From assembly GCA_938036345.1 (NCBI GenBank), contig CALHPJ010000005.1, positions 1 to 64,000 on the forward strand: DNA of 64,000 bases, written 5' to 3'. The notes under the pieces were generated by a model. That model saw only the letters and a program-made list of their open reading frames with translations. It had not been told where the DNA came from and did not search any database. This document shows positions 32,554 to 64,000 of the stretch, one piece after another (position 1 is the stretch's first letter; each line of letters opens with the position of its first letter). The translations under genes were made by a program, and so were the position numbers. The DNA is from an uncultured Thermofilaceae archaeon. GTDB taxonomy: Archaea > Thermoproteota > Thermoprotei > Thermofilales > Thermofilaceae.

Positions 32554-33939
32554 ATGGACGTGGATTTTCTGCATAAAATGGTTGAGGAGGCTTGTAGCAT
32601 GGGCGCTTCCTACGCTGATATACGCTTGCAGGAGTTGGAGGCTTCCGGTATTTCTGTGAAAAACGGCAGCATGGAGGAAGCGTCAGTCTCCAGAAGAAGA
32701 GGTGTGGGAGTAAGGGTTCTCCTCGAGGGTGCTTGGGGTTTCTCCTCGACAGAGGTAGTAAGAGAGGAGGAAGTGAGGAGAGCTGTTGCTAACGCGCTCA
32801 AGATGGCGAAAACCTCGCTAGGCGCTAGGAGGAGGAAGGCCGGACTCGCAGAGGTGCCCATCCGGAGGGTCAGCTTAAGCTCCAAAGTTGCGGAAAACCC
32901 GGTTCACGTCGACCCGGGCGAGAAGGCTGGGCTCGTCCTAGAGCTCGAGAAGTTGATGAGGTCGCGCAGCCCCGCCGTGAAGGATACACATGCGTTCTAC
33001 GGGGATGTGCTAGACAGGAGGGTTTTCGTGAGCAGTGAGGGAGGGGAGGTGGTTGTCGAGAAAACCCGGGTGAGGTTTGCAGCTTACGTGGTCGCGTCGG
33101 AGAACGGCGCCCTATCACCGGCCTACGAGGCTGTGGGGGGCGTTAAGGGCTTCGAGTTGATGCGCGGCGAGGAGCCCTACAAGGCGGCTGAAAGCGCCGC
33201 CGAAAGAGCTGTACGGCTTCTGAAGGCTAGAACGCCCAAAGGCGGGTTGGCGGTAGCGGTCCTGGACAACAAGCTCCTAGCTTTGATTGTGCACGAGGCT
33301 TTCGGGCACTGCGCGGAGGCCGACCTAGTCCTCTCGGGGGATGTGCTCACGGGGAAGCTGGGGCAGCGGGTGGCATCCGAGCTGGTGACGATCGTCGACG
33401 ACCCCGGCCCTGAGCACGCCTATGGGTGGACTCCTTACGACGACGAGGGCGTAGAGGGGAGGAAGGTCGTAATCGTTGAAGAGGGTATCTTGAAAGGCTA
33501 CATGCACAGCAGGGAGACCGCGGCCGAGATGGGCGCCGAGCCCACAGGCAACGCGAGGGCCCAGGACTACAGTTTCGCGCCGATAGTTAGGATGAGGAAC
33601 ACCTACATGGAGCCGGGCGACTGGAAACCGGAGGAGATAATTGCCGAAACTAGGGAGGGGTACTACCTGAAGGGCGCCCTGGGCGGGCAAGCTGACACCA
33701 ACGGCGAATTCATGTTCGCTGTTCAGGAGGCGTGGAGAATCGAGAGAGGCGAGCTTACCGAGGCGTACAGGGGCGTCGCCGTGTCCGGTAGCGCGCTCGA
33801 GGTTTTAAGCAGCGTGGACGCGGTTGGCCGCGACTTCAAGATCGGCTTTCCGGGTACTTGTGGTAAAGGTCAAGCGGCCCCGGTAGACGGGGGTGGGCCG
33901 CATATCAGGTGCAGGATTATGGTTGGTGGTGCCCGGTGA
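32554..33939 (+). CDS. tldD: TldD metalloprotease subunit
   Basis: A 461-residue TldD/PmbA-family protein. The catalytic zinc motif HEAFGHCAEAD (H-E-x-x-x-H) is at about residues 247-257, within the strand-helix typical of TldD. With TldE it forms a heterodimeric protease that cleaves small or unfolded peptides. The ATG start is 26 bases after a TATA box (CGTTTAAATC), giving a leaderless transcript. The next gene, tldE, overlaps by GTGA, so the two are made together. Confidence 0.92.
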   Translation: MDVDFLHKMVEEACSMGASYADIRLQELEASGISVKNGSMEEASVSRRRGVGVRVLLEGAWGFSSTEVVREEEVRRAVANALKMAKTSLGARRRKAGLAEVPIRRVSLSSKVAENPVHVDPGEKAGLVLELEKLMRSRSPAVKDTHAFYGDVLDRRVFVSSEGGEVVVEKTRVRFAAYVVASENGALSPAYEAVGGVKGFELMRGEEPYKAAESAAERAVRLLKARTPKGGLAVAVLDNKLLALIVHEAFGHCAEADLVLSGDVLTGKLGQRVASELVTIVDDPGPEHAYGWTPYDDEGVEGRKVVIVEEGILKGYMHSRETAAEMGAEPTGNARAQDYSFAPIVRMRNTYMEPGDWKPEEIIAETREGYYLKGALGGQADTNGEFMFAVQEAWRIERGELTEAYRGVAVSGSALEVLSSVDAVGRDFKIGFPGTCGKGQAAPVDGGGPHIRCRIMVGGAR

Positions 33940-35252
33940 GCCTCGTAGAGGAGGTCGCGAGGTACGCCTTGAAGCTCGGAGCCGAGGAGGCCTTCGCGGC
34001 CTTGAGCAGGGCCAGGGTTTACCGAGCGGAGATAGAGAGCGACGAGATCGCTAGAGTGTCGTCAGCCGTGGTAGAGCGCCTATCGATCGCGGTCATCAAG
34101 GATCGGAGGATCGCCACAGCGACGGTTAACGACGTGGACAGGGATACGGCTATGAGGTGCGCGGAAAGGGCGTACAGGCTGGCTTTGGCCGTAAAGCCGA
34201 ACGAGAATTGGAGAGGCCTCCCGGAGCCGAAGCCTTTGCCGGCTGTTGAGGGTCTCTTCGACCGCCGCATCGAGCTCCTCGGGGCTGAGGAGGTCGTGGA
34301 TATGGCGAAGCACCTGCTGGACGCAGCCCGCGAAGTGAGCGGAAAGGTATCCCTAGTGAGCGCCGGCGTTGAAGCCGCTGTCGCCGAAACCGAGGTATTC
34401 TCCACCGCCGGTGCGCACGGGCTCCAGAGAACCACAACGTTCGGGGCGAACGCCATTGCCGTGGCCAAGGAAGCCGGGGTCGTCGGCAGCTTCTCCTTCG
34501 CATCCGACGCCTCACGCTCCCTCGACGTGGACGTGGAGCAGATCGCCCAGGAAGCCGCCTCCAAGGCCTTGGAATCGCTCCGCTTGAAGCCGGCTCCGAC
34601 GTTCAAAGGCACGCTGTTGCTCGACCGGGACTTCGCAGCCGAGGTTTTCCTCTCCCTAGCCCAGGCGTATAGCGGCTACAACGTCTGGAGCGGCAGCAGC
34701 CCGCTGGCGGGCAAGTTGAACGAACAAGTTTCGTCGGAGCTGTTGACGGTTGTGGACGACGGCACGCTACCGGGCGGCTTAAGGTCCTCAAGCTTCGATG
34801 GCGAAGGCTCCCCCACGCTGAGGAAGACGGTTATTGAGCGCGGGACCCTTAGGACCTACATCAACAACACGTTCACGGCCAGGCTCCTGGGCATGCAGCC
34901 GACCGGCAACGCGGACGACCTGCTCTCAGTAGCCCCCTCGAACACCGTTGTACAGGCGGGCGACATGAGCCTGGAGGAGATGGTGGGTGGAGTGGAGCGG
35001 GGGCTCTTCGTAAGCCGCTTCTCCGGCATGATCCGGTTCCAAGACGGCGTAATCTCCGGGACGGCTAAGCAGGCCTTCTACGTAGAGAGAGGCGAGAGGA
35101 AGTACCCGGTGGGCGAGTGCATGGTATCGTGCAACCTGTACGACTTAATCAGGAATATTAGCGGTCTCGGCAGGGAACAGTGGCGCACAAGCTACGGCGT
35201 CTACACACCCGTCGTGAGGGCTGAAAACGTAACATTCGTGGGTAAAGCCTAG
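33936..35252 (+). CDS. tldE: TldE/PmbA, partner subunit of TldD
   Basis: A 438-residue TldD/PmbA-family protein that lacks the H-E-x-x-x-H motif, as expected for the TldE partner. Shared family segments include GLFDRRIELL, NAIAVAKEAG, SSELLTVVDDGTLPGG and TGNADDL. I start at the GTG at 33936, which overlaps the TldD stop as GTGA; an ATG 27 bases upstream is in frame but less likely. It ends in a 4-base overlap with the convergent winged-helix gene. Confidence 0.9.
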   Translation: MSLVEEVARYALKLGAEEAFAALSRARVYRAEIESDEIARVSSAVVERLSIAVIKDRRIATATVNDVDRDTAMRCAERAYRLALAVKPNENWRGLPEPKPLPAVEGLFDRRIELLGAEEVVDMAKHLLDAAREVSGKVSLVSAGVEAAVAETEVFSTAGAHGLQRTTTFGANAIAVAKEAGVVGSFSFASDASRSLDVDVEQIAQEAASKALESLRLKPAPTFKGTLLLDRDFAAEVFLSLAQAYSGYNVWSGSSPLAGKLNEQVSSELLTVVDDGTLPGGLRSSSFDGEGSPTLRKTVIERGTLRTYINNTFTARLLGMQPTGNADDLLSVAPSNTVVQAGDMSLEEMVGGVERGLFVSRFSGMIRFQDGVISGTAKQAFYVERGERKYPVGECMVSCNLYDLIRNISGLGREQWRTSYGVYTPVVRAENVTFVGKA

Positions 35253-37500: not shown

Positions 37501-39432
37501 GTGGCGGCTTCGAGCGATCTGGAAAGTGGTTTCACGTGGAGAGCCGCGCTCTTCGTTGTCATTGCAGCGCTGGTTTTCATCCCCGCGAGCACTTACCTGA
37601 ACTTAATCGCGGGTGTTTCACTGGGCTTAGTTGGAACCTACGCCCTCCTAGTCCTCTTCGCGTACGTCATGAGGCTTCTAGACTCGGATATGAAGCCCCA
37701 GGAGGTTTTTACCCTGTACGTTGGAGTCGGGTCCGTCTCCGGGATCGCGACAACCGCCTACTACCTTATCATCTACAGGATGTACTTCGTGCAGAGCCCG
37801 ATCTCCCAATCCTACAGCCTGATGGGTGTTCAGCTACCCGAGGTGGTGCCGGACTGGCTTGCTCCGCCCCTCTCCTCGACAGCTTACAGGGCCAGGACGT
37901 TCTTCCACCCGGACTTGGCGAAGCCTTTAGTTGCGTGGACCGTTGCCACGGCCTTGGCCATGCTGGCCGAGCTCTCGCTAGTCATAATCGCTGCGCACGT
38001 GTTCGTCGAAATACAGAAACTCCCCTTCCCCTACGCGCAAGTGGACGCCTCCATTGTAGAGGCGCTGTCGAGCGGCCAAAGGTTCAGGGAAACCGTCGGC
38101 TTCCTAGCTCCTGGCCTGTACGTCGGGCTCTCCTACGGCTCGCTCCTCTACCTTGGCTCAAGCCTCGGCTTCCCGCTGATCCCCCTCCCCTTCATCGATT
38201 TAACGAGGCTCACCTCCTCCATCTTGCCCGGAGCCGTTATAGGCTTGGCGACCAGCCTTATGCCCTGGGCAGCGGGCATGGTGGTGCCCTTTGGCATCGC
38301 GTCGGTAAGCCTCGCCATATCGCTCGCCGTATGGGTTTTCGGGAACTCGCTAATTCTGACAAACCCTGCGCTGAGGGAGGCGTTCCCGGAGTGGGTTTCC
38401 GAATACTACGGGGGGATGGACCTGATTAGAGTGCTGCAACGATCCCAAGTCAGGGTCTGGCTTCCCATACAAATCGGAGCAGCGCTGGGATTCGCGGCGC
38501 TGACTATTCTGAAGTACCGGAAAGCCCTCTCCGCGACCGTTAGAGTTCTGCGCCGTTCACTAGTGGGATCCGAGGATGGCGGCGCGCTCCCCTCGCTTCG
38601 GCTTGCGTTCGCCTGCTTCCTAGCCTCGACGCTCTCATCCGTAGCGGTATTCCACTATCTCCTGCCGAACTTCCCCATCATAATTGCACTGCTGACGTCG
38701 CTCGGCGTGAGCTTCCTCCTGGGGCTGATTTCGGCGGCGGTGGTCGGCGAGAGCGGTGCTTCTTTCTCGCCGCCCCCGTACCTGTGGCATACGATCGTCT
38801 ACCTAACGCCAGCTGAGGACTTAACCCCCAAGGAGGCCTACGCCGCCTTCGTATACCCGCCAGTTATCGCGGGCGGGGCCACGGGTGGGGGTGCGCAGGC
38901 GATGAAAGTAGCGTTGCTGACCCGCACCAAGCCAATCGACGTGGTGAAAGTTTGGGTGTTTGCGTACACTCTGGGACTGGTGATAAACCTCCTATCTCTC
39001 GACTTCTTCTGGAGGATTGCCCCGATACCGAGCAGCGCGTACCCCAACACGATTATCTCGATGCCGGCGTCCGCGATGATCGACTCGCTGCTGGTGACCA
39101 GGGCGCTTCGTATCCAGTCCCAACTGCTGGTTTTATCGGCTATAGGTACGGCCGGTCTAGCTGCCGCAGTCGAGCTAGCTGCGAAGGTTCTGAAACTGGG
39201 CGTCTCGTCAGCGGGCTTAATGCTAGGCCTGACCACCCCACCGGTGTACGCGATCCCCCTGTTCGCCGGATCCGCTGTAAGCAGGCTGGTCCTGCGCCGC
39301 TTCCTCGGAGAGCGGTGGGAGAGAGCTAGGAGCGCAATTGTGGCCGGCGTGCTGCTGGGAGAGGGGTTGGCCGCAACGATAGCCGTCGTGAGCCTTATGT
39401 TGGTCAAATCCGCGTGGCTCTGGCCTTGGTGA
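37501..39432 (+). CDS. OPT-family-like oligopeptide/metal-chelate transporter
   Basis: A 643-residue membrane protein with about 14-16 hydrophobic helices. OPT-like features are KLPFPYAQVDASIVEAL (compare the family's PFPSG segment), GGATGGGAQAMKVALLTRTKP, and the C-terminal GLTTPPVYAIPLFAGSAVSR. It probably imports peptides. GTG start with a TATA box (AGTTTTTACC, 37471-37480) at the leaderless distance. The following gene, a huge M28-like/FtsX protein, starts 6 bases after its stop behind a good ribosome site, so the two act together. Confidence 0.75.
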   Translation: MAASSDLESGFTWRAALFVVIAALVFIPASTYLNLIAGVSLGLVGTYALLVLFAYVMRLLDSDMKPQEVFTLYVGVGSVSGIATTAYYLIIYRMYFVQSPISQSYSLMGVQLPEVVPDWLAPPLSSTAYRARTFFHPDLAKPLVAWTVATALAMLAELSLVIIAAHVFVEIQKLPFPYAQVDASIVEALSSGQRFRETVGFLAPGLYVGLSYGSLLYLGSSLGFPLIPLPFIDLTRLTSSILPGAVIGLATSLMPWAAGMVVPFGIASVSLAISLAVWVFGNSLILTNPALREAFPEWVSEYYGGMDLIRVLQRSQVRVWLPIQIGAALGFAALTILKYRKALSATVRVLRRSLVGSEDGGALPSLRLAFACFLASTLSSVAVFHYLLPNFPIIIALLTSLGVSFLLGLISAAVVGESGASFSPPPYLWHTIVYLTPAEDLTPKEAYAAFVYPPVIAGGATGGGAQAMKVALLTRTKPIDVVKVWVFAYTLGLVINLLSLDFFWRIAPIPSSAYPNTIISMPASAMIDSLLVTRALRIQSQLLVLSAIGTAGLAAAVELAAKVLKLGVSSAGLMLGLTTPPVYAIPLFAGSAVSRLVLRRFLGERWERARSAIVAGVLLGEGLAATIAVVSLMLVKSAWLWPW

Positions 39433-39438
39433 GAGGAG

Positions 39439-42400
39439 ATGAAGCTGTACGCTTTGGTCGGCCTCGCGTTGCTGGTGTTCAGCACGACCGCGCTAGCTCA
39501 ACCGGCTCCGAAAACCCTTGAGCAGCTGCTTGACCAGCTAAACGCTGAAGCCGTTCTGGAGCACGCTTATACGCTCTCCACGTTGGGATCCAGAGTCACG
39601 GGGTACAGGGGTTACTACGCATCTGTCAGTTACATCGCCGGCCAGCTTAGTAGCTTAGGGTTAAATCCGGAGTACCGGAACTTTACCCTCCTAGTGCCTG
39701 TGGACGGAGGGAGCCGGATCAGGATCCCGGAGGCGGGGGCGGAGATCGAGGCATACGCGCTTTGGCCGAATGGGCACGTGGGGGTTTGGGACTGCAGCAA
39801 CCTGAGCGGAAAGCTGGTTTACGTTGGCGAAGGTAAGCTTGAGGACTTCGATGGAAAAGATGTGGAGGGCGCAATCGTGGTGATGGATTTCCGCAGCGGA
39901 GATAACTGGAGGTACGCTGCGAAATTCGGCGCCAGGGCGGTCGTGTTCGTCGGGTCGGGCGAAGCGGATAGATACGAGGCGTACTCCAAGTTCGAGTGGT
40001 ACGCCTTCTACCCGTTTGTGAGATTGTACGTGGAGGGGGAGGGGGCTGAGAGACTAGTTGAGTGCGCCTTAAGAGGCTACGCTGCAGTAATCGACTCACG
40101 GATCTCGCTTAAAGCGGTTGAGGCCAGCAACTTGCTGGTTAAGATACCCGGTAGAAGACAGGACGAGGCCGTGCTTGTGATCGCAAGTATTGACTCCTGG
40201 TCGGTCGTCCCCGCTTTAGCTCAGAGCGTGCACGACGCGCTTAACGTCGGCTTCCTGCTCGAGCTGGCAAAGGTCGCGACGCGAGCCCGCCTCGAGCGGT
40301 CACTGTGGGTCGCTTTTCTCTCAGGCCGCTGGCAAGGGTTGGCGGGGGCGAGGCGCATGGCGGACAGCTTCGCCTCGGACCCTGATTTGACCTCAGGGAG
40401 GAACGTGGTATGGTACGTTGTAGGCGTGGATTTCTCGGACGACTTCCCGGGCGTTTCGCTTGTATACGTGGGACACTTCTACCGCGCGGGGAGGGCGCTC
40501 CTCACGGCGAAGTATAGCTGGGTTCAGGAGCTGGTTACTGGGCGGCTTAACGATCTCGTGTACGCCTACCTGAGCCAAAGAAAACTGCTACCGGAGAACC
40601 TCGCCGGGGCTTACAGGGAGCTGGGGCTCATCAGGGACGTCGATTTGGTGGAGGGCCCGGATTGGAGCTGGACGGGCACTATGGCCACCCCTTACTTGCT
40701 GGATACCGAGCCGTTCGTCGTCGCCAACATGGCTGGTTTCACCATCAGAACGCAGTTCAGCTTCCGGAACTGGGAGGGCGTACCCGGTACCAGCCCGGTT
40801 AGGTGGAGCTACGTAGCCCCCCAGCTGTACCAAGCTGCAGCGCTCATACTCCAGATGCTGGCTGCAGAGGAGGTGAGGTTAAGCCGCTCCGCTTCGATCC
40901 CCACCCGATTCACGGGCCTCGGCGGCGGCGCAGCGGGCGTTCTCCTCTGGGGTCTGGTATCGTTTAGAGTCAGCGTGGCTTCCTTCAACCTCAGCACGGG
41001 CTGGTACACCCCCGTACCGGGCGCTATTGTCAGGGCTTGGAGCTACCCGCACACATACCCCTTCGCGTGCGCCTTGGAGGGAACCGGGCCCGATGGCACA
41101 GCAGAGATCGCGGGGTTATCCCCGCAGGGTGTAAACTACTGGCTCATCGAAGCCGTAAAGGTCGAAGAAGGCTCCGTGTACGTGGTTGACCACGGTGTGT
41201 ACGGTGTCCCGCCCGCGGCGCTTGTCGTTGGAGCGCTGCAGGATCCCATGCCGGTTTTCGTGCCAGTGTTTAAAGGGGGGGTTATAGTGCTTTTCGACGT
41301 TATCTCGCCGAGGCTTTTCAGAACAGGGGCGATGGACGACCCTAGAGCGGGGGGCGTTAGGGTGTGGTACAACTTTGGCGGAGAAGTGAAGGTGTACGAT
41401 ATTTGGACTAAAGCCGAGCCGATGCACTGGAGCAGCTACCTGGCCCCCCAGTACGACGTAGCTATGGTAGCGGCCCCCGTGGGCTCCAGGATCGTCGTCT
41501 CCGCTAAACCGGAGAACCCCTCTCTTGAGCCTAGACCCCTAATACTTTTAACCAACTCTACGGAGCAGGAGCCTGAGGGGTTGGGAGTTCAGGTTAAACC
41601 GGGCTTCACGCTGATCGCTACACCTACGCTGGCCTACTCGCTCGACACCTTCCGAGTTGCCCAATCCAGGTACTCTCAGTTGAAGTCGAAGGGCGTGCGG
41701 AGGCTGAGCGCAGAGGCCTACGAGAAGCACGCCAGCTGGTACATCTCGGCAGCCCTCAACGCGACTAAGGAGCGCAGGTACTCGGAAGCCTACAGGTACT
41801 CGCTCCTAGCCCTATCCTTCTCAGCCAGGTACTACGCTGAGGAGGTCATGCCCCTCTACGACGAAACGGCGAGAACTGCCGTGCTGATGCTGTTTATAGT
41901 GTTGCCCTCGGCGTACCTCCTCGAGAGGCTCCTAGTCCACAGCGAAGGGTTGAAGAGGGTCCTGGCGGTAGCGGGGGTCGGTGCTGCGGCGCTCCTCCTC
42001 TTCACCCTCGTGCACCCGGCAATGACGGTGCTCGCCAACTCCGCCATGTCCGTGCTGGGAACTTCCCTGCTTATGATCGCGCTGCTCGTGCTTGCTGTGT
42101 TCTCGAGCGAGACTTCACACGCCTTAAGGAGCTACGCCGCGTCCAAGCTGGGCTTCCACGAGTTCAGGAGGGAAGAGATATCGGCGGCGCTCATATCGGT
42201 TTCAACCGCCCTGGAGAACATGCGGAAGAGGCCCTTAAGAAGCGTTCTAACCCTTATGTCGATAGTCGCGGTTGCTGTAGCAGTAGTCTCGCTGACGTCT
42301 ACCTCGCCCACGGTGCTCACGTCGGCCTCAGTTGTTCACCGCCCCGCCGCTTACGAGGGGCTTGCCGTGAGGAGGGGGTTCGGGGTGCTGCAGGAGGTTC

Positions 42401-43887
42401 TCAGCGTCAAAACCGTTGAAGCGCTGAAGGGCCTGGCCGGGCTCGCTTCCGTGCCCAGGGTGTGGCTTTACCCAGTCTCGGTAAATAAGCTCGGGCCCTA
42501 CGGGCTTGTTGTCGGCAAAAGCGGTTACATCGCAGTTCAGGCCGTGCTTGGCTTGAACCCCCTTGAAGCCGACAAGGTATTGTCCCGCGCGGTAGTCAAC
42601 GGCTCGGCGTTCCACCCCCGCCACGTGTACGCCTGCTTGCTAACCACTAAGCAGGCCCGATCGCTCGGAGTAACTGTGGGGGACGAAATAGAGTACTCGG
42701 GGCTTAAGCTATCCGTCGCAGGGATCCTCAGCGAAGAGGTGCTGCAGGGGCTCCCCGGCGACCCGGACGGCTACCCGTACGTGCCGCTCGACCCGACGTA
42801 CTCGCCCACGCTCTACGGCTTTGCGGTCGGAGGAGGCCAGATAAGGCCGAGCCCCCTCGCCTGGGAGCGAGTCCTCGTAGTAACCGACGCGCTCGCACTG
42901 AAGCTGGGAGGCTTCGTCAACAGCGTTGGAGTCTTAACGGAGAACTCCACCTTCGATGCGATGATGGACTTAGCGCGCAGGGCCTGTTACGCGCTGGACG
43001 CCGGGGTCTCCATCCACAGCAACGGCACCTCCGTAGCGGTAAGCAGGGTCTTCGGTTACGCGCTTTTCGGGTGGGAATTCGTTATACCGCTCCTTGCGCT
43101 TGGATCTGTAAGCGTTGTGGTGACCCTGCTGGCGGCTGTTTACGAAAGGTCGAGGGAAATGCTGGTGTTCTCCGCTTTGGGGCTCTCCCCCCGCGGTGCG
43201 GCGCTGATGTTCACGGCAGAGTTCCTAGTTTACGGGCTCCTCGGCGCGTTCATTGGTTACGTGCTGGGCTGGGCGCTCTCCTGGCAATTCATATCCATGG
43301 GCCTTCTGCCGGAGACCTACGTGTTCAACTACGCATCAGCGGCAGTGATACTCGCTCTGGTAGCAGTCGTTTCTGTGTGCTTATCCTCAGCTGCGTACCC
43401 GGCGCTCAAAGCTTCGCGGCTTATAACCCCGTCCCTGGAAAGGGCTTGGAAACCTCCCACGAAGCCGCGCGGGGATTCGTGGGAGGTTGTTTTCCCGCTC
43501 AGGCTTGCGTCCAGGGGCGAGGCCTTAGGCTTGCTGGAGTACCTCCGGGAGTACTACGAAGGGGCTGGATCCTACAAGCCCAGCTTCCGAGTGGTAAGTA
43601 TTGAGGGCGTAGACGCTTCGAGCTTGGAGCTGAGGGCGAGGGTGCTGGTGGCCCCTGTGGAGAGCGGGACCGAGCAGGCGGTATCAATACGGGTTATCGA
43701 GCAGCCGGGTAAGAGGTACATTGTCGGCGTAACGGCTAAGCTGCTCGGGGGTTCGCGGGTTACCTGGCATAGCTCAGCGCCGTACTTCTTCGACGATATG
43801 AGAAAGCAGCTGCTCCTCTGGACGTCGCTAGCCGGAGAGGAGAAGGCCAAGTATATCAGTCGTGCAGCGCCCGCCGGGAGCGCCTAG
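39439..43887 (+). CDS. M28-peptidase-like domain fused to FtsX/MacB-type permease
   Basis: A 1482-residue protein. A signal peptide (1-20) precedes an M28-type exopeptidase fold with a PA-like insert (about 100-235) and core to about 480. Its metal ligands are lost: the H-x-D motif reads SIDSW (about 250-254) and the catalytic E-E motif reads SGRWQGLAG. A beta domain (about 505-590) and another soluble part follow, then membrane helices near 815-900 and an FtsX-like permease (about 930-1370), and a cytoplasmic-like tail. SD GGAG before the ATG. It likely binds peptides outside and signals or moves them. A paralog lies at 62759-64000. Confidence 0.82.
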   Translation: MKLYALVGLALLVFSTTALAQPAPKTLEQLLDQLNAEAVLEHAYTLSTLGSRVTGYRGYYASVSYIAGQLSSLGLNPEYRNFTLLVPVDGGSRIRIPEAGAEIEAYALWPNGHVGVWDCSNLSGKLVYVGEGKLEDFDGKDVEGAIVVMDFRSGDNWRYAAKFGARAVVFVGSGEADRYEAYSKFEWYAFYPFVRLYVEGEGAERLVECALRGYAAVIDSRISLKAVEASNLLVKIPGRRQDEAVLVIASIDSWSVVPALAQSVHDALNVGFLLELAKVATRARLERSLWVAFLSGRWQGLAGARRMADSFASDPDLTSGRNVVWYVVGVDFSDDFPGVSLVYVGHFYRAGRALLTAKYSWVQELVTGRLNDLVYAYLSQRKLLPENLAGAYRELGLIRDVDLVEGPDWSWTGTMATPYLLDTEPFVVANMAGFTIRTQFSFRNWEGVPGTSPVRWSYVAPQLYQAAALILQMLAAEEVRLSRSASIPTRFTGLGGGAAGVLLWGLVSFRVSVASFNLSTGWYTPVPGAIVRAWSYPHTYPFACALEGTGPDGTAEIAGLSPQGVNYWLIEAVKVEEGSVYVVDHGVYGVPPAALVVGALQDPMPVFVPVFKGGVIVLFDVISPRLFRTGAMDDPRAGGVRVWYNFGGEVKVYDIWTKAEPMHWSSYLAPQYDVAMVAAPVGSRIVVSAKPENPSLEPRPLILLTNSTEQEPEGLGVQVKPGFTLIATPTLAYSLDTFRVAQSRYSQLKSKGVRRLSAEAYEKHASWYISAALNATKERRYSEAYRYSLLALSFSARYYAEEVMPLYDETARTAVLMLFIVLPSAYLLERLLVHSEGLKRVLAVAGVGAAALLLFTLVHPAMTVLANSAMSVLGTSLLMIALLVLAVFSSETSHALRSYAASKLGFHEFRREEISAALISVSTALENMRKRPLRSVLTLMSIVAVAVAVVSLTSTSPTVLTSASVVHRPAAYEGLAVRRGFGVLQEVLSVKTVEALKGLAGLASVPRVWLYPVSVNKLGPYGLVVGKSGYIAVQAVLGLNPLEADKVLSRAVVNGSAFHPRHVYACLLTTKQARSLGVTVGDEIEYSGLKLSVAGILSEEVLQGLPGDPDGYPYVPLDPTYSPTLYGFAVGGGQIRPSPLAWERVLVVTDALALKLGGFVNSVGVLTENSTFDAMMDLARRACYALDAGVSIHSNGTSVAVSRVFGYALFGWEFVIPLLALGSVSVVVTLLAAVYERSREMLVFSALGLSPRGAALMFTAEFLVYGLLGAFIGYVLGWALSWQFISMGLLPETYVFNYASAAVILALVAVVSVCLSSAAYPALKASRLITPSLERAWKPPTKPRGDSWEVVFPLRLASRGEALGLLEYLREYYEGAGSYKPSFRVVSIEGVDASSLELRARVLVAPVESGTEQAVSIRVIEQPGKRYIVGVTAKLLGGSRVTWHSSAPYFFDDMRKQLLLWTSLAGEEKAKYISRAAPAGSA

Positions 43888-43986
43888 CGGGGCTTGCTAC
43901 CTCGCTTCCCAGTTCGCGCCTACCAGCCATATAGCGCTTCAAGCGAATACCCCGCCTAGCTGCAACCCCCTCCGCGTGGCGGGCAA

Positions 43987-43996
43987 AACTTTTTAC
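43987..43996 (+). promoter_or_regulatory. TATA box of the MttB-family gene
   Basis: ACTTTTTACA is centred 26 bases before the GTG at 44018. It fixes the start there and shows that the open frame upstream to 43862, which overlaps the previous gene, is not translated. Confidence 0.6.
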
Positions 43997-44017
43997 AGGC
44001 AGTTAAGCGGGCAAGCT

Positions 44018-45445
44018 GTGCCAAAGCCCGTCTTCAAGGTCCTGTCGAGCGGGGAGGCTGAGCAGGTACACGCGGCCGCGCTCCGCCTCCTATCTGAAAC
44101 AGGGGTTTACTTCGAGGATAAATCTGTTGAAAGGATCCTGCTAGAAGCTGGGTGCGAAGTCAAGGGGGGAAGGGTACTGGTGCACGAGGAGCTCGTTAAG
44201 GAGGCGCTTTCAAAAACTCCGGGGAGCTTCCCTCTCTACGACAGGGAGGGGCGCCTAGTCGCGACGCTGGGTGAAGGAGCGAGAGTGTTTAACCCTGGGT
44301 CTGCAGCGGTGAGGATCCTCGACTACCGTTCAACCGAACCCAGGATACCTACCCTCGGCGACCTGAGGGATTTCGTCAAGCTGGCGGACGCGCTCGAGTA
44401 CATCAGGGGGCAGAGCACAGCCCTCGTACCGAGCGACGTCCCAGTTGAGGTGAGCGACGCGGTGCGGCTTTACGTGGTTCTAAAGTACTCTTCAAAGCCA
44501 GTAGTAACCGGCGCTTTCACGATCGAAAACCTGCCCCTAATGGTGGAGATGCTGGCCGCCGTCCGCGCGGACTATCGCGAAAGGCCCTTCGCCATATTCG
44601 ACGCGTGCCCCTCGCCTCCCCTATCCTGGAGCGCTATCACCTCCAGGAACCTAGTCGACCTGGCTCGGTTGGGTGTACCGGCTGAAGTGGTAGCCATGCC
44701 AGGGCTCGGAGCCAACGCCCCAGCCACCGTGTACGGGGCCCTCGTGCAGCACCACGCAGAGGTCCTGAGCGCGGTTGTTGTGGTCCAGTTGGCGTCGGCC
44801 GGGGCTAAGGTAATTTACGGGGGTTCCCCCACAGTGATACACCCGCGCTCTGGAACCCCGATGATCACCGCCCCGGAGGCGGTGCTGGTAAGCCTATCTT
44901 ACATGGATATGGCCAAGTACGTGCACCTGCCTTGCCACACGTACATGGGGCTTGCCGACGCTAAGGTGCCCAACTACCAAGCCGGAGCCGAGGCTGCCTA
45001 CACCGCGGTGCTTGCCGCGCTCGCGGGCTTCGACGTCGTATCGGGCCCCGGAATGCTCGGCTACGAGAGCGTTCAGTCGATGGAGAAGCTCGTACTGGAT
45101 AACGAGGTGTGCGGGATTGCTTTACGCTTAACCAAAGGCTTCTCCGCTTCGCCCGGGGATGTGGACTTGATTAGGGAGGTTGTACTGGCAAGGCGGGGCA
45201 ACTTCATGGCGCACAGGAGCACGCCGGCCGCCATCAGGAGGGAAATCCACATTCCGAGGGTGTGGGATACGGAGCCTATAACCGAAAAGGGGGCTAGGGA
45301 CCTACTGGAGTGGGCTCACAGCGAGGTTGAAAGAATACTCAGGGAGCACGAGCCGCCAGTCCTTGAAGGGGATAAACTGAGGGATCTCGATAAAGTTCTA
45401 GGTAAACTTTGGAGCAGAGTGGGCGGCAGACCCCCGCAGGTATAG
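44018..45445 (+). CDS. MttB-superfamily (trimethylamine/betaine) methyltransferase
   Basis: A 475-residue protein with the MttB TIM-barrel: an N-terminal helical part (HAAALRLLSETGVYFEDKSVERILLEAGCEV) and core segments such as TALVPSDVP, TYMGLADAKVPNYQAGAEA and MAHRSTPAAIRRE. There is no in-frame amber codon, so it is a non-pyrrolysine member, likely using glycine betaine or another quaternary amine, with a corrinoid protein as acceptor. No corrinoid protein gene is nearby. The GTG start is set by the TATA spacing. Confidence 0.85.
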   Translation: MPKPVFKVLSSGEAEQVHAAALRLLSETGVYFEDKSVERILLEAGCEVKGGRVLVHEELVKEALSKTPGSFPLYDREGRLVATLGEGARVFNPGSAAVRILDYRSTEPRIPTLGDLRDFVKLADALEYIRGQSTALVPSDVPVEVSDAVRLYVVLKYSSKPVVTGAFTIENLPLMVEMLAAVRADYRERPFAIFDACPSPPLSWSAITSRNLVDLARLGVPAEVVAMPGLGANAPATVYGALVQHHAEVLSAVVVVQLASAGAKVIYGGSPTVIHPRSGTPMITAPEAVLVSLSYMDMAKYVHLPCHTYMGLADAKVPNYQAGAEAAYTAVLAALAGFDVVSGPGMLGYESVQSMEKLVLDNEVCGIALRLTKGFSASPGDVDLIREVVLARRGNFMAHRSTPAAIRREIHIPRVWDTEPITEKGARDLLEWAHSEVERILREHEPPVLEGDKLRDLDKVLGKLWSRVGGRPPQV

Positions 45446-45614: not shown

Positions 45615-46946
45615 ATGCCAGTCGAGTTCGAGCCGTACCCCGAGTTCGTGAAACTAGGGTACCAGCCCGACCCGCAAACCGACGTGATAGTCTCCTTCCG
45701 GCTAACACCCGCCGAGGGGTTCACCGCAGAGGACGCCGCAGGCGGAGTGGCTGCAGAGAGTAGTACGGGCACGTGGACCACCCTCTACACGTGGTACGAT
45801 ACCGCTCGCTTGAACAAGCTGATGGGGAAAGCGTACTTCATCCAATCGCTCGGGGACGGCAGTTACGCCCTTAGAGTCGCGTACCCCCTCGAGCTTTTCG
45901 AAGAGGGCAACATGCCGGCCTTCCTCGCCTCCGTGGCAGGCAACGTGTTCGGGATGAGGAGGGTTAAGGGTTTGAGGGTTGATGACGTATACCTGCCCAA
46001 AGCGTTTCTCGAGCACTTTAAAGGGCCCCACAGGGGCTTGCAGGGGGTTCGGGAGATAATGGGCGTAAAGGACAGGCCGCTAGTGGGCACGGTACCGAAG
46101 CCGAAGGTGGGCTACTCACCCGATGAGGTTGAAAAGCTAGCGTACGACTTGCTAACGGGGGGCCTCGACTACGTTAAGGACGACGAGAACTTGGCTGGAC
46201 CCGGGTACTGCCGATTCGAGGAGCGCGCCCGCGCGATAATGAGAGCCATAGACAGGGCGGAAAAGGAAACCGGTGAAAGGAAGGTGTGGTTTGCCAACAT
46301 TACGGCGGACGTCAGGGAGATGGAGCGCAGGTTGAAGCTGGTGGCCGACTACGGTAACCCGTACGTAATGGTCGACGTGGTGATAACCGGTTGGTCCGCG
46401 CTCACCTTTGTGCGGGACCTGGCTGAGGAGTACGGCTTGGCTATACACGCCCACAGGGCTATGCACGCGGCTTTCACCAGGAACCAGTACCACGGGATCT
46501 CGATGTTCGTGCTCGCTAAGCTGTTTCGGGTAATCGGCGTCGACCAGCTGCACGTGGGGACGCCTGAGGTGGGTAAACTCGAGGCGAGAACAATCGACGT
46601 GATCAGGAACACTCGCGTGCTGAGGGAGCCCGTGTACAGGCCGGAGCCGGACGACGTACTCCACTTAGAGCAGCCCTTCTACCACTTGAAGCCCGCGATC
46701 CCTGTAGCTTCGGGTGGACTGCACCCGGGCACACTGCCCGAGGTGATGCGAGTCATGGGATCCGATATAGTGATCCAAGTCGGCGGCGGGGTTGTGGGAC
46801 ACCCGGACGGCCCGAAGGCCGGAGCTATGGCTGTTAGGCAGGCCATAGACGCCGCAATGCAGAAGATACCCTTGGACGAGTACGCTAAGAGCCATAAGGA
46901 GCTGGCAAGAGCCCTCGAGAAATGGGGGTACGTTAAGCCGATCTGA
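45615..46946 (+). CDS. rbcL: Form III RuBisCO large subunit
   Basis: A 443-residue archaeal RuBisCO. Catalytic motifs are intact: ESSTGTWT near the N-terminus, GTVPKPKVG (Lys175 equivalent), GGLDYVKDDEN with the carbamylated lysine and metal-binding D-E, HAHRAMHAAFTR, the loop 6 lysine in GKLEA, SGGLHPG and GGGVVGHPDG. Form III enzymes fix CO2 in the AMP/nucleoside salvage pathway, converting ribulose-1,5-bisphosphate to 3-phosphoglycerate. No AMP phosphorylase or ribose-bisphosphate isomerase gene is in the window. ATG start; TATA CTAAAATACC about 25 bases ahead; single-gene unit. Confidence 0.95.
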   Translation: MPVEFEPYPEFVKLGYQPDPQTDVIVSFRLTPAEGFTAEDAAGGVAAESSTGTWTTLYTWYDTARLNKLMGKAYFIQSLGDGSYALRVAYPLELFEEGNMPAFLASVAGNVFGMRRVKGLRVDDVYLPKAFLEHFKGPHRGLQGVREIMGVKDRPLVGTVPKPKVGYSPDEVEKLAYDLLTGGLDYVKDDENLAGPGYCRFEERARAIMRAIDRAEKETGERKVWFANITADVREMERRLKLVADYGNPYVMVDVVITGWSALTFVRDLAEEYGLAIHAHRAMHAAFTRNQYHGISMFVLAKLFRVIGVDQLHVGTPEVGKLEARTIDVIRNTRVLREPVYRPEPDDVLHLEQPFYHLKPAIPVASGGLHPGTLPEVMRVMGSDIVIQVGGGVVGHPDGPKAGAMAVRQAIDAAMQKIPLDEYAKSHKELARALEKWGYVKPI

Positions 46947-62758: not shown

Positions 62759-64000
62759 TTATACCTGCGGGGCTCCAGCCCTCTCTACGTAGTGGGCCCT
62801 TCTCTCTTGGGGTAAAGCCCTCCACATAAGTGCCTGCTTCCTCACCTCATCAATGAAGTAGTAGCTCAAGCTCTCCCACGCGCTCCTCGAGCCGGTGAGC
62901 CTCCTTAGCTTCAACATCAGCGTGTAAACCCTGCGGATTTCGTCGCCAACTAACCCGACTCTGGCCTCCTGAGTTACTCCCAACTCGTAGGGTGCTAAGG
63001 CTACGACTAGCGTGGTCACCGGCTCTGCGAGCGAGAGCGGCTCCGCCTCGCGAACTGTGAAGTACGGCCTCTCCTTCCCCATCCCTGTGAAGTATTCGTA
63101 GATATAGTGCAGAGAGCCGAGGGCCTCCTCCCTCGACGGGAACCTAATCGGGAGTGGTATCTCCCAGAAATCACCTCTCGGCTTAGTTGGAGGCTTCCAC
63201 CTCCTCTCAAGCGACGGGGTGATGAGAGTGGCTGCAACGAGGCTCGGGTAAAGGGAGGCTGAAAGCACAGAGAGGATCAAGACCGCGAAAGCTACAATCA
63301 TGAAAGCAGAGGCATAGTTTAAGGCATAAGCTGAGGGGAGGAAGCCGAGGAGGGCCATCAACCTGTTCGTTGCGAAGCCGAGCGCGTAGCCAGCGACAAC
63401 CGCAATGACCGCGTAGGTGAGGGCCTCTGTGACGTACATCAAGGCTGAACCGGATGGGGACAAACCAACAGCAGTGAAAACGTAGATTTCGCGCACCCTC
63501 TCCTTGATGTTTCCAAGCAGCGTAATGGCCATGTTCAAAGCGCCTATCACCAAGACTACCGGGATCATCTCCCAGCCGAGGAAGAGGTAGCTAGCAACCC
63601 TGGCTCCACTGAGCACGCCGACCCCTTTCGCTCCTACGTAGACTTTAAGGTCGGTAGCCAGTGCAACATCCCTCGCTACCCTTGTGAGCACTATCTCATC
63701 GACCGGTTCGCTAGGGAGTTCCACTGAGGCTAAGTAGCCGCCGCCTCTGAGAACGAAAGCGTAAGGTGCAATGATGAGCTCGTTCCAGCTTGTGCTAGAT
63801 GGCACCGTCGGCGGTGGGCCGGGGGGTTGCATAGCTATCGTTGGGTTGTGCTCCGGTCTCACCGGCGCCGGGCTCATCCCATCTAGGTCAACTAACTTGC
63901 TGGCCAAAACTTCGTCGAATACCCCAACAACGGTGAAGTCGAAGCCTGCATACGACACGCGGTCCCCGATGCTCACGTTTAACGCCTCCGCAGCGCTCCG
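62759..64000 (-). CDS. FtsX/MacB-type permease, C-terminal part (cut by window edge)
   Basis: The 413 visible residues are the C-terminal region of a permease clearly paralogous to the end of the 1482-residue protein at 39439-43887. Both share a soluble strand pair (SIGDRVSYAGFDFTVVGVF against TVGDEIEYSGLKLSVAGIL), FtsX helices, the linker LITPSLERRWKPPTKPRGD, and a C-terminal cytoplasmic domain ending in a Y-F-x-D helix. The frame remains open through the last base of the window, so the start and any M28-like domain lie outside. A GTG at 63976 is not the true start. Confidence 0.82.
   Translation of the reverse strand, partial: RSAAEALNVSIGDRVSYAGFDFTVVGVFDEVLASKLVDLDGMSPAPVRPEHNPTIAMQPPGPPPTVPSSTSWNELIIAPYAFVLRGGGYLASVELPSEPVDEIVLTRVARDVALATDLKVYVGAKGVGVLSGARVASYLFLGWEMIPVVLVIGALNMAITLLGNIKERVREIYVFTAVGLSPSGSALMYVTEALTYAVIAVVAGYALGFATNRLMALLGFLPSAYALNYASAFMIVAFAVLILSVLSASLYPSLVAATLITPSLERRWKPPTKPRGDFWEIPLPIRFPSREEALGSLHYIYEYFTGMGKERPYFTVREAEPLSLAEPVTTLVVALAPYELGVTQEARVGLVGDEIRRVYTLMLKLRRLTGSRSAWESLSYYFIDEVRKQALMWRALPQERRAHYVERAGAPQV

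Follow-up and report, generated by a model that had tools for sequence, protein, structure and literature searches.

What does a peptidase fold that has lost its catalytic residues do on the outside of an FtsX-type permease, and why is its gene placed beside that of an OPT-like transporter? The question was raised by two adjacent genes in the window, that is, the whole stretch of 64,000 nucleotides analysed here, which belongs to contig C5 of the genome of an uncultured Thermofilaceae archaeon. The first gene, OPT2 (37501..39432), encodes a divergent OPT-family membrane protein of 643 amino acids and begins with GTG; the second, FUS (39439..43887), encodes a fusion protein of 1482 amino acids, in which a pseudo-M28 domain and an FtsX permease were recognised by Pfam, profile comparison, AlphaFold2 (AF2) modelling and fold search. 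Both genes, and all features described below unless otherwise indicated, are on the forward (+) strand. They are separated by 6 bases, GAGGAG (39433..39438, read from the sequence), between the OPT2 stop and the FUS ATG, so the positions and spacing given in a preliminary description of this DNA were right. The ribosome-binding site at the junction, GGTGAGAGGAG, overlaps the OPT2 stop, and for this reason the two proteins are probably co-translated. Our answer, which we hold with moderate confidence, is that these hot-spring archaea have a Type VII ATP-binding cassette (ABC) system in multiple copies, with FUS as its permease subunit, a pseudo-peptidase head, and dedicated OPT-type carriers.

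The M28 head and the permease unit of FUS

By Pfam, the M28 family was recognised at residues 231-313 of FUS (E 8e-5). A profile of residues 1-850 built from 52 members matched the M28B aminopeptidase 2ek8 with E 1.6e-33 and, at lower significance, the transferrin receptor (5e-12), nicalin (8e-8), and nicastrin (2e-3). The AF2 model of this region, calculated from the 52-sequence alignment, had a mean pLDDT (predicted local distance difference test) of 91.5 and a pTM (predicted template modelling score) of 0.88. In the fold search its best solved neighbours were the M28B aminopeptidases 2ek8 (E 5e-23) and 6hc6, and the P. aeruginosa aminopeptidase, the transferrin receptor, and GCPII were also found. 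The superposition of the whole model, which has several domains, was poor (root mean square deviation near 9 Å), so the fold match applies to the M28 and PA region. The pseudo-M28B domain covers approximately residues 35-476 (39540..40866) and holds a PA-like insert at approximately residues 110-221 (39766..40101), where the profile of the ZNRF3 PA domain matched residues 162-221; in the FUS homologue L151 the Pfam PA family was detected below its cut-off (E 8.6e-4). Ahead of the domain there is a signal peptide or N-terminal anchor, residues 1-20 (39439..39498; MKLYALVGLALLVFSTTALA), modelled as a helix at 2-19. The fold, the insert, and the signal peptide had all been read as kept in the preliminary description, and the three were recovered here.

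The residues of the catalytic site were assigned by hidden Markov model profile alignments to 2ek8 and 6hc6, and their conservation was followed in the 94 FUS homologues whose sequences include the site, which range from Thermofilales to distant Thermoproteota. The two altered motifs pointed out earlier, SIDSW and SGRWQGLAG, are real. In S250-I-D252-S (40186..40197) the first zinc His is replaced by Ser while the Asp of HxD is kept, and in G296-R297-W298 (40324..40332) the catalytic Glu and the ligand Glu are replaced by Arg and Trp. The ligand set of the window protein would then be Ser250, the candidate bridging Asp266 (residue 265 is the other choice, since the position of the gap differs between the alignments to the two templates), Trp298, Asp331 as fourth ligand, and the Gly447 region for the last His. 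The initial idea that the zinc ligands and the catalytic Glu were replaced was thus correct for three of the five ligands and for the catalytic base, but D266 and D331 persist, as does D252.

Among the homologues there was no Glu at 297 or 298 in any of the 94, the commonest residues being His (75) and Trp (60). D252 was invariant (94/94), residue 266 was D or E in 90/94, and D331 was kept in most; H250 was retained in 50/94, and a His at 446-448 was seen in only 3/94. Ser250 is found in the window FUS and its three closest orthologues (61-65% identical). Zinc site 2 and the base are therefore lost almost everywhere, and the full candidate set of site 1 (H250, D/E266, D/E331) is kept in 33 of the 94 relatives, 25 of them with His297 at the old catalytic-base position, and is gone in the window lineage. 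Considering that the Glu pair is absent in every homologue, catalysis was lost before the family spread and, on the evidence of these alignments, the M28 domain of FUS is a pseudo-peptidase across the family. An active peptidase was rejected on the same grounds, and the orthologues do not keep active peptidase residues either. Since the Asp positions of site 1 persist and 33 relatives have the complete candidate set, a one-metal site is possible in those relatives, and some of them may bind a metal. The alternative ligands that could rebuild a zinc site thus exist at candidate level in relatives but not in the window protein, which has S250 and R297.

After the M28 domain, the model shows an extracellular beta-strand region (approximately residues 488-735; 40900..41643) and a helical bundle or coiled coil (approximately 729-832; 41622..41934) that runs into the membrane, the first hydrophobic segment being 810-828. 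Three extra transmembrane (TM) helices follow at approximately residues 810-904 (41866..42150), according to the model and the hydrophobic segments, and then the Type VII permease unit at residues 932-1328 (42232..43422). In the AF2 model the order of the latter is TM1, an extracellular core (954-1210), TM2, a coupling helix (1238-1246), TM3, and TM4. The FtsX family was detected by Pfam at residues 1218-1327 with E 1e-13 (51.8 bits against a cut-off of 25.5). The model of residues 795-1482, obtained from 91 sequences (pLDDT 91.0, pTM 0.77), contained the three extra helices, the FtsX unit with its core and coupling helix, and a cytosolic alpha/beta domain, and its fold neighbours were LolCDE, MacB, HrtB, YbbP, and BceB (E 1e-11 to LolE, 4e-6 to YbbP, and about 1e-4 to BceAB); by sequence profile MacB matched with E 4e-17, and LolC/LolE, MacB, and HrtB were found by fold and profile. 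The chain does run on into a MacB/FtsX-type permease, as first described. An ATPase coupling motif, E1236-R1237-x-R1239-E1240 (43144..43173), was assigned from its conservation in homologues, with R1237 in 92/94, E1236 in 84/94, and E or D at 1240 in 92/94. The cytosolic C-terminal domain (residues 1347-1476; 43477..43866) is made of strands and helices in the model; its similarity to Bet v 1/START proteins by Foldseek (E about 2e-3, probability 1.00) suggests a Bet v 1/START-like fold. This tail, the third partner DUF6785, and the six paralogous pairs of this genome go beyond what had been described before.

Partners of FUS: OPT2, DUF6785, and candidate ATPases

The association between FUS and OPT2 was studied in 398 Thermoproteota genomes and 95 FUS loci. 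FUS was present in 50 genomes, OPT2 in 51, and both in 49 (compared by a Fisher test in which phylogeny is ignored). OPT2 lay at most 500 bp from FUS in 79 of the 95 loci, 63 of which were co-directional within 150 bp, and within 2.8 kb in 5 more; its position varied between downstream, upstream, and divergent, giving three gene orders. The 11 loci with no OPT2 in the stretch comprised six of family f40 and five short or cut stretches. In 81 pairs, the distances between OPT2 proteins correlated with those between their partners (r 0.82 with the M28 heads and 0.87 with the FtsX parts); when partners were swapped within genomes, which keeps genome membership fixed, the mean r was 0.31-0.34 and the maximum 0.52, and 0/1000 trials reached the observed values. 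The linkage, whose conservation had been named as a check, is therefore conserved and specific to each pair, and these comparisons are strong evidence for partner-specific co-inheritance of FUS and OPT2. A chance neighbourhood was rejected by the co-occurrence, the linkage, and the mirrored trees. From the 49/50 co-occurrence and the mirrored trees, a physical complex of FUS and OPT2 is a direct, testable prediction.

In f40 and f16, FUS had neighbours of its own. At f40 loci (L150-L156), Gfo/Idh-like and aldo/keto-reductase-like genes come before FUS, and after it are encoded conserved proteins of 339 and 296 amino acids, neither of which is matched by Pfam; OPT2, DUF6785, and the ATPase are grouped elsewhere in the genome (L223-L225). 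In f16 genomes a protein of 608-612 amino acids with a match to the YidC periplasmic domain is encoded directly upstream of FUS (L176:9799-11622, L177:3709-5544, L178:2863-4692).

The OPT-like identity of the neighbour, proposed at first from the sequence of a single copy, was upheld at the level of the family. The window copy alone gave no OPT match by Pfam; among the members of the OPT2 family, 21/52 matched PF03169 with an E-value of 0.1 or lower, the best being 3.8e-14, and one paralogue in this genome exceeded the Pfam OPT cut-off. The family profile matched the barley transporter HvYS1 with E 3.7e-10 over positions 157-612, which is most of its length, and 11-12 hydrophobic segments were counted. 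By these profile matches OPT2 is, at family level, a divergent OPT-family protein. The OPT proteins that we know of are stand-alone carriers.

A second OPT-like protein, DUF6785 (PF20581), was encoded at most 2 genes from the pair in 64/94 loci. It stands beside 4 of the 6 pairs in this genome and beside the orthologues of the window pair in genomes G006 and G009. It was found in 52 of the 398 genomes, 47 of them among the 50 with FUS, and in 0/14 named control genomes. One DUF6785 protein matched Pfam OPT with E 7e-9, and these proteins are distant OPT relatives.

With regard to the cognate ATPase that the preliminary description hoped to find, there was none in the open reading frames flanking the window pair, but a plausible LolD/MacB-type candidate is encoded in trans. 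The gene of this 'type A' ATPase is cut by the end of contig C16, and the remainder is very probably the part found where C4 begins; a related 'type B' ATPase lies at the start of C18 and otherwise adjoins a small FtsX-like protein. At the assembly break (end of L113 on C16, start of L114 on C18, start of L115 on C4), about 145 bases are identical between two paralogous ABC ATPase genes, which looks like a recent gene conversion. An ATPase at 75-99% identity is present in nearly all FUS-positive relatives, and in the FUS-negative ones, two excepted, the value does not exceed 57%. Relatives of type A at 75-91% identity occur in most FUS-positive relatives, whereas those of FUS-negative genomes are mostly at or below 57%. 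The exceptions are G033 (type A and no clear FUS), G017 (type B only, no FUS), G019 (FUS with type B only), and G025 (FUS with a 52% ATPase). At the scale of the phylum, such an ATPase is present in 47/50 FUS genomes. The strongest evidence for the parts being one system comes from the complete genomes G099 and G193, where the FUS cluster fits within about 14 kb in the order small FtsX-like protein, two tandem ATPases, two uncharacterised genes, OPT2, DUF6785, and FUS. A Yip1-like protein considered as a bridge between f40 FUS and the ATPase in G024 and G026 was discarded, the similarity being too weak (E 0.039 and 0.002). This genome also encodes three more FtsX proteins of very large size, whose ectodomains are different (L102 on C2, 1801 amino acids; L117:6108-9173; L118:6302-9556).

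The host genome (1.52 Mb, 24 contigs, 92% complete) has six full FUS and six full OPT2 genes, and all 12 are in adjacent pairs. The C-terminal part of a second FUS paralogue lies at the end of the window on the reverse strand (62759..64000), about 19 kb from the first pair; the full gene is C5:62774-67222, and its OPT2 (C5:67234-69135) and DUF6785 gene (C5:70461-71729) are outside the window. An extra FUS remnant with an in-frame TAA, L051 (G000:C22:51325-52701), is a decaying or broken copy and, like two further OPT2 fragments, is located on or near a contig end. A search of a plasmid collection gave no match. Around the first pair, the window contains a PmbA/TldD-family metallopeptidase homologue by Pfam (33909-35252, +), a trimethylamine methyltransferase (MTTB) family protein (43862-45445, +) whose reading frame lacks any TAG and is therefore of the non-pyrrolysine type, and, two genes downstream of the pair, a homologue of the RuBisCO large chain (45615-46946, +; Pfam E 1e-87). 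MTTB homologues turn up repeatedly among the sampled neighbours of FUS loci.

The proposed system and its alternatives

In the system that we propose, the disabled M28 domain at the cell surface would serve as a ligand-binding or docking head, connected by the rigid coiled coil to the motor part. LolD/MacB-type ATPases encoded elsewhere would hydrolyse ATP and move the head through the FtsX helices (mechanotransmission), and OPT2, often with DUF6785, would form the carrier or channel for uptake or release of the ligand. The several paralogous sets of one genome would probably handle different ligands. From the genomic evidence FUS and OPT2 are expected to form a physical complex, and the coupling of ATP hydrolysis by the candidate trans ATPases to FUS appears probable; binding of the ligand at the dead site, its handover to OPT2, and the direction of transport are postulated. 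More tentatively, it is possible that the system is a hybrid transporter of a class not described before, in which an OPT carrier, often OPT2 plus DUF6785, is gated or energised with ATP by the Type VII motor, the pseudo-peptidase head captures the substrate, and the expansion into several paralogous sets per genome resembles that of SusCD pairs.

As to the ligand, the descent from M28 and OPT proteins makes a peptide plausible, a metal chelate or a glycan is equally possible, and a lipid is less so. The preliminary description had suggested a peptide, and here the neighbouring genes did not follow it: no enrichment in peptide metabolism was seen near FUS loci, with two M1 peptidases among 98 sampled neighbour proteins. 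Glycoside hydrolases and oxidoreductases recur near some loci, but they are sparse and not decisive for the substrate.

Several observations weigh against the system as proposed. The neighbour genes are mixed and give no pointer to a substrate, the window's own pair has no adjacent DUF6785, and most FUS genomes have no ATPase adjacent to FUS. Such an ATPase also occurs in 23 genomes that lack FUS, and the ATPases that track FUS could serve other FtsX proteins; the three large FtsX proteins mentioned above may share the trans ATPases and would be alternative clients. Family f40 has its OPT2 at a distance from FUS, so adjacency of the two is not obligatory, and the co-occurrence statistics ignore shared ancestry at genome level.

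An unlikely alternative is that FUS is a BceB-like sensor with an ATPase, whose head detects a peptide or antibiotic and whose FtsX motion carries the signal, OPT2 being an ordinary regulated transporter. The presence of BceAB among the fold matches is consistent with it, the START-like domain could relay a signal, and variable paralogous heads would suit sensing. Against this, histidine kinases and response regulators do not recur beside the loci, only 3 of the 98 sampled neighbours are TrmB regulators, and co-inheritance of OPT2 pair by pair is more readily explained by a shared complex than by a shared signal.

It is similarly improbable that FUS is a machine for extraction of lipids or hydrophobic compounds, with the head as acceptor, the START-like domain as the lipid end, and OPT2 and DUF6785 flipping or carrying the product. 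Hydrophobic compounds are common ligands of START/Bet v 1 folds, and LolC/LolE are the best permease matches. In YbbAP-TesA, a hydrolase is the partner of a Type VII ABC (PMC12646458). However, LolC/LolE have no M28 head and none of the three additional TM helices, and the START assignment is a suggestion at fold level. To our knowledge, OPT proteins are not lipid carriers.

Very little credit can be given to the M28 domain as a metal-dependent hydrolase or amidase with a rebuilt site (H250, D/E266, H297, D331), for which the 33 relatives with the candidate set, 25 with H297, and the invariant D252 could be invoked, considering that the window lineage has S250 and R/H297, that Arg297 would not bind zinc, that no member has Glu at 297/298, and that a His near the last-ligand position is so rare. 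The pairing as a by-product of expression needs or of co-mobilisation of a selfish or horizontally moved block, with no joint function, is just as hard to sustain: the paralogues are multi-copy and scattered and several copies are decayed or partial (C22, C12), but the linkage outlasts repeated changes of gene order and strand, the partner trees mirror each other, and no mobile-element genes recur among the sampled neighbours.

FUS-OPT2 compared with known systems

We found no published description of an M28, FtsX, and OPT system, of the role of DUF6785, or of an archaeal OPT link in the open-licence literature, and the FUS-OPT2 system is apparently undescribed in the literature that could be searched. 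It falls within the Type VII ABC class, and the new aspect is the unusual tie to OPT-type carriers. In their known uses, which concern division, lipoproteins, efflux, and lipid hydrolysis, Type VII ABC systems push on proteins that lie outside the membrane; a Type VII motor tied pair by pair to a family of secondary-type carriers would be a new use, and it would provide a testable setting for DUF6785 and the archaeal OPT-like proteins, both with no known role.

MacB-class proteins do not pass the substrate through their own helices, and the ATP-driven motion is transmitted to work outside the membrane (PMC5985334). FUS shares with MacB, LolCDE, FtsEX, HrtAB, and BceAB the four-helix FtsX unit, the core between TM1 and TM2, and the coupling helix between TM2 and TM3. 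Unlike them, it has a 1000-residue head of pseudo-M28, beta, and coiled-coil regions, three extra TM helices, and a START-like tail; its ATPase is encoded apart and its OPT partner looks obligate. The carriers have their nearest known counterparts in the OPT/YSL transporters and the DUF6785/DUF6784 proteins. Of the former, HvYS1 (7wsr; PMC9691689) aligns with the OPT2 profile, but OPT2 has diverged and is linked to an ABC permease. In YbbAP-TesA of E. coli, a Type VII ABC motor is joined to a periplasmic hydrolase (PMC12646458), and there, as in FUS, an enzyme fold outside the cytoplasm accompanies a Type VII permease; TesA is a separate protein with esterase activity, while the enzyme of FUS is fused, dead, and accompanied by an OPT-type partner.

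The closest solved relatives of the head in sequence and fold are the M28B aminopeptidases (2ek8 and B. subtilis YwaD, 6hc6), which in contrast to FUS are active, two-zinc, secreted enzymes with no permease. Loss of catalysis followed by reuse of the M28 fold for binding, as predicted for FUS, is known from transferrin receptor 1, nicastrin, and nicalin. Nicastrin carries a domain of the aminopeptidase/transferrin-receptor superfamily and acts as substrate receptor (PMC2647162), and the transferrin receptor has a PA insert in its M28 fold, as FUS does. An enzyme turned receptor on an FtsX permease had been presented as new: no other was found on an FtsX permease, but the change itself has this eukaryotic precedent. 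Both structure and evolution give good support to the conversion of the enzyme into a predicted binding head of such a permease. The eukaryotic proteins have single-pass or other anchors, whereas the head of FUS sits on an ABC permease, and it would be a prokaryotic counterpart of nicastrin and the transferrin receptor, as an M28 peptidase deprived of catalysis and turned into a binding head.

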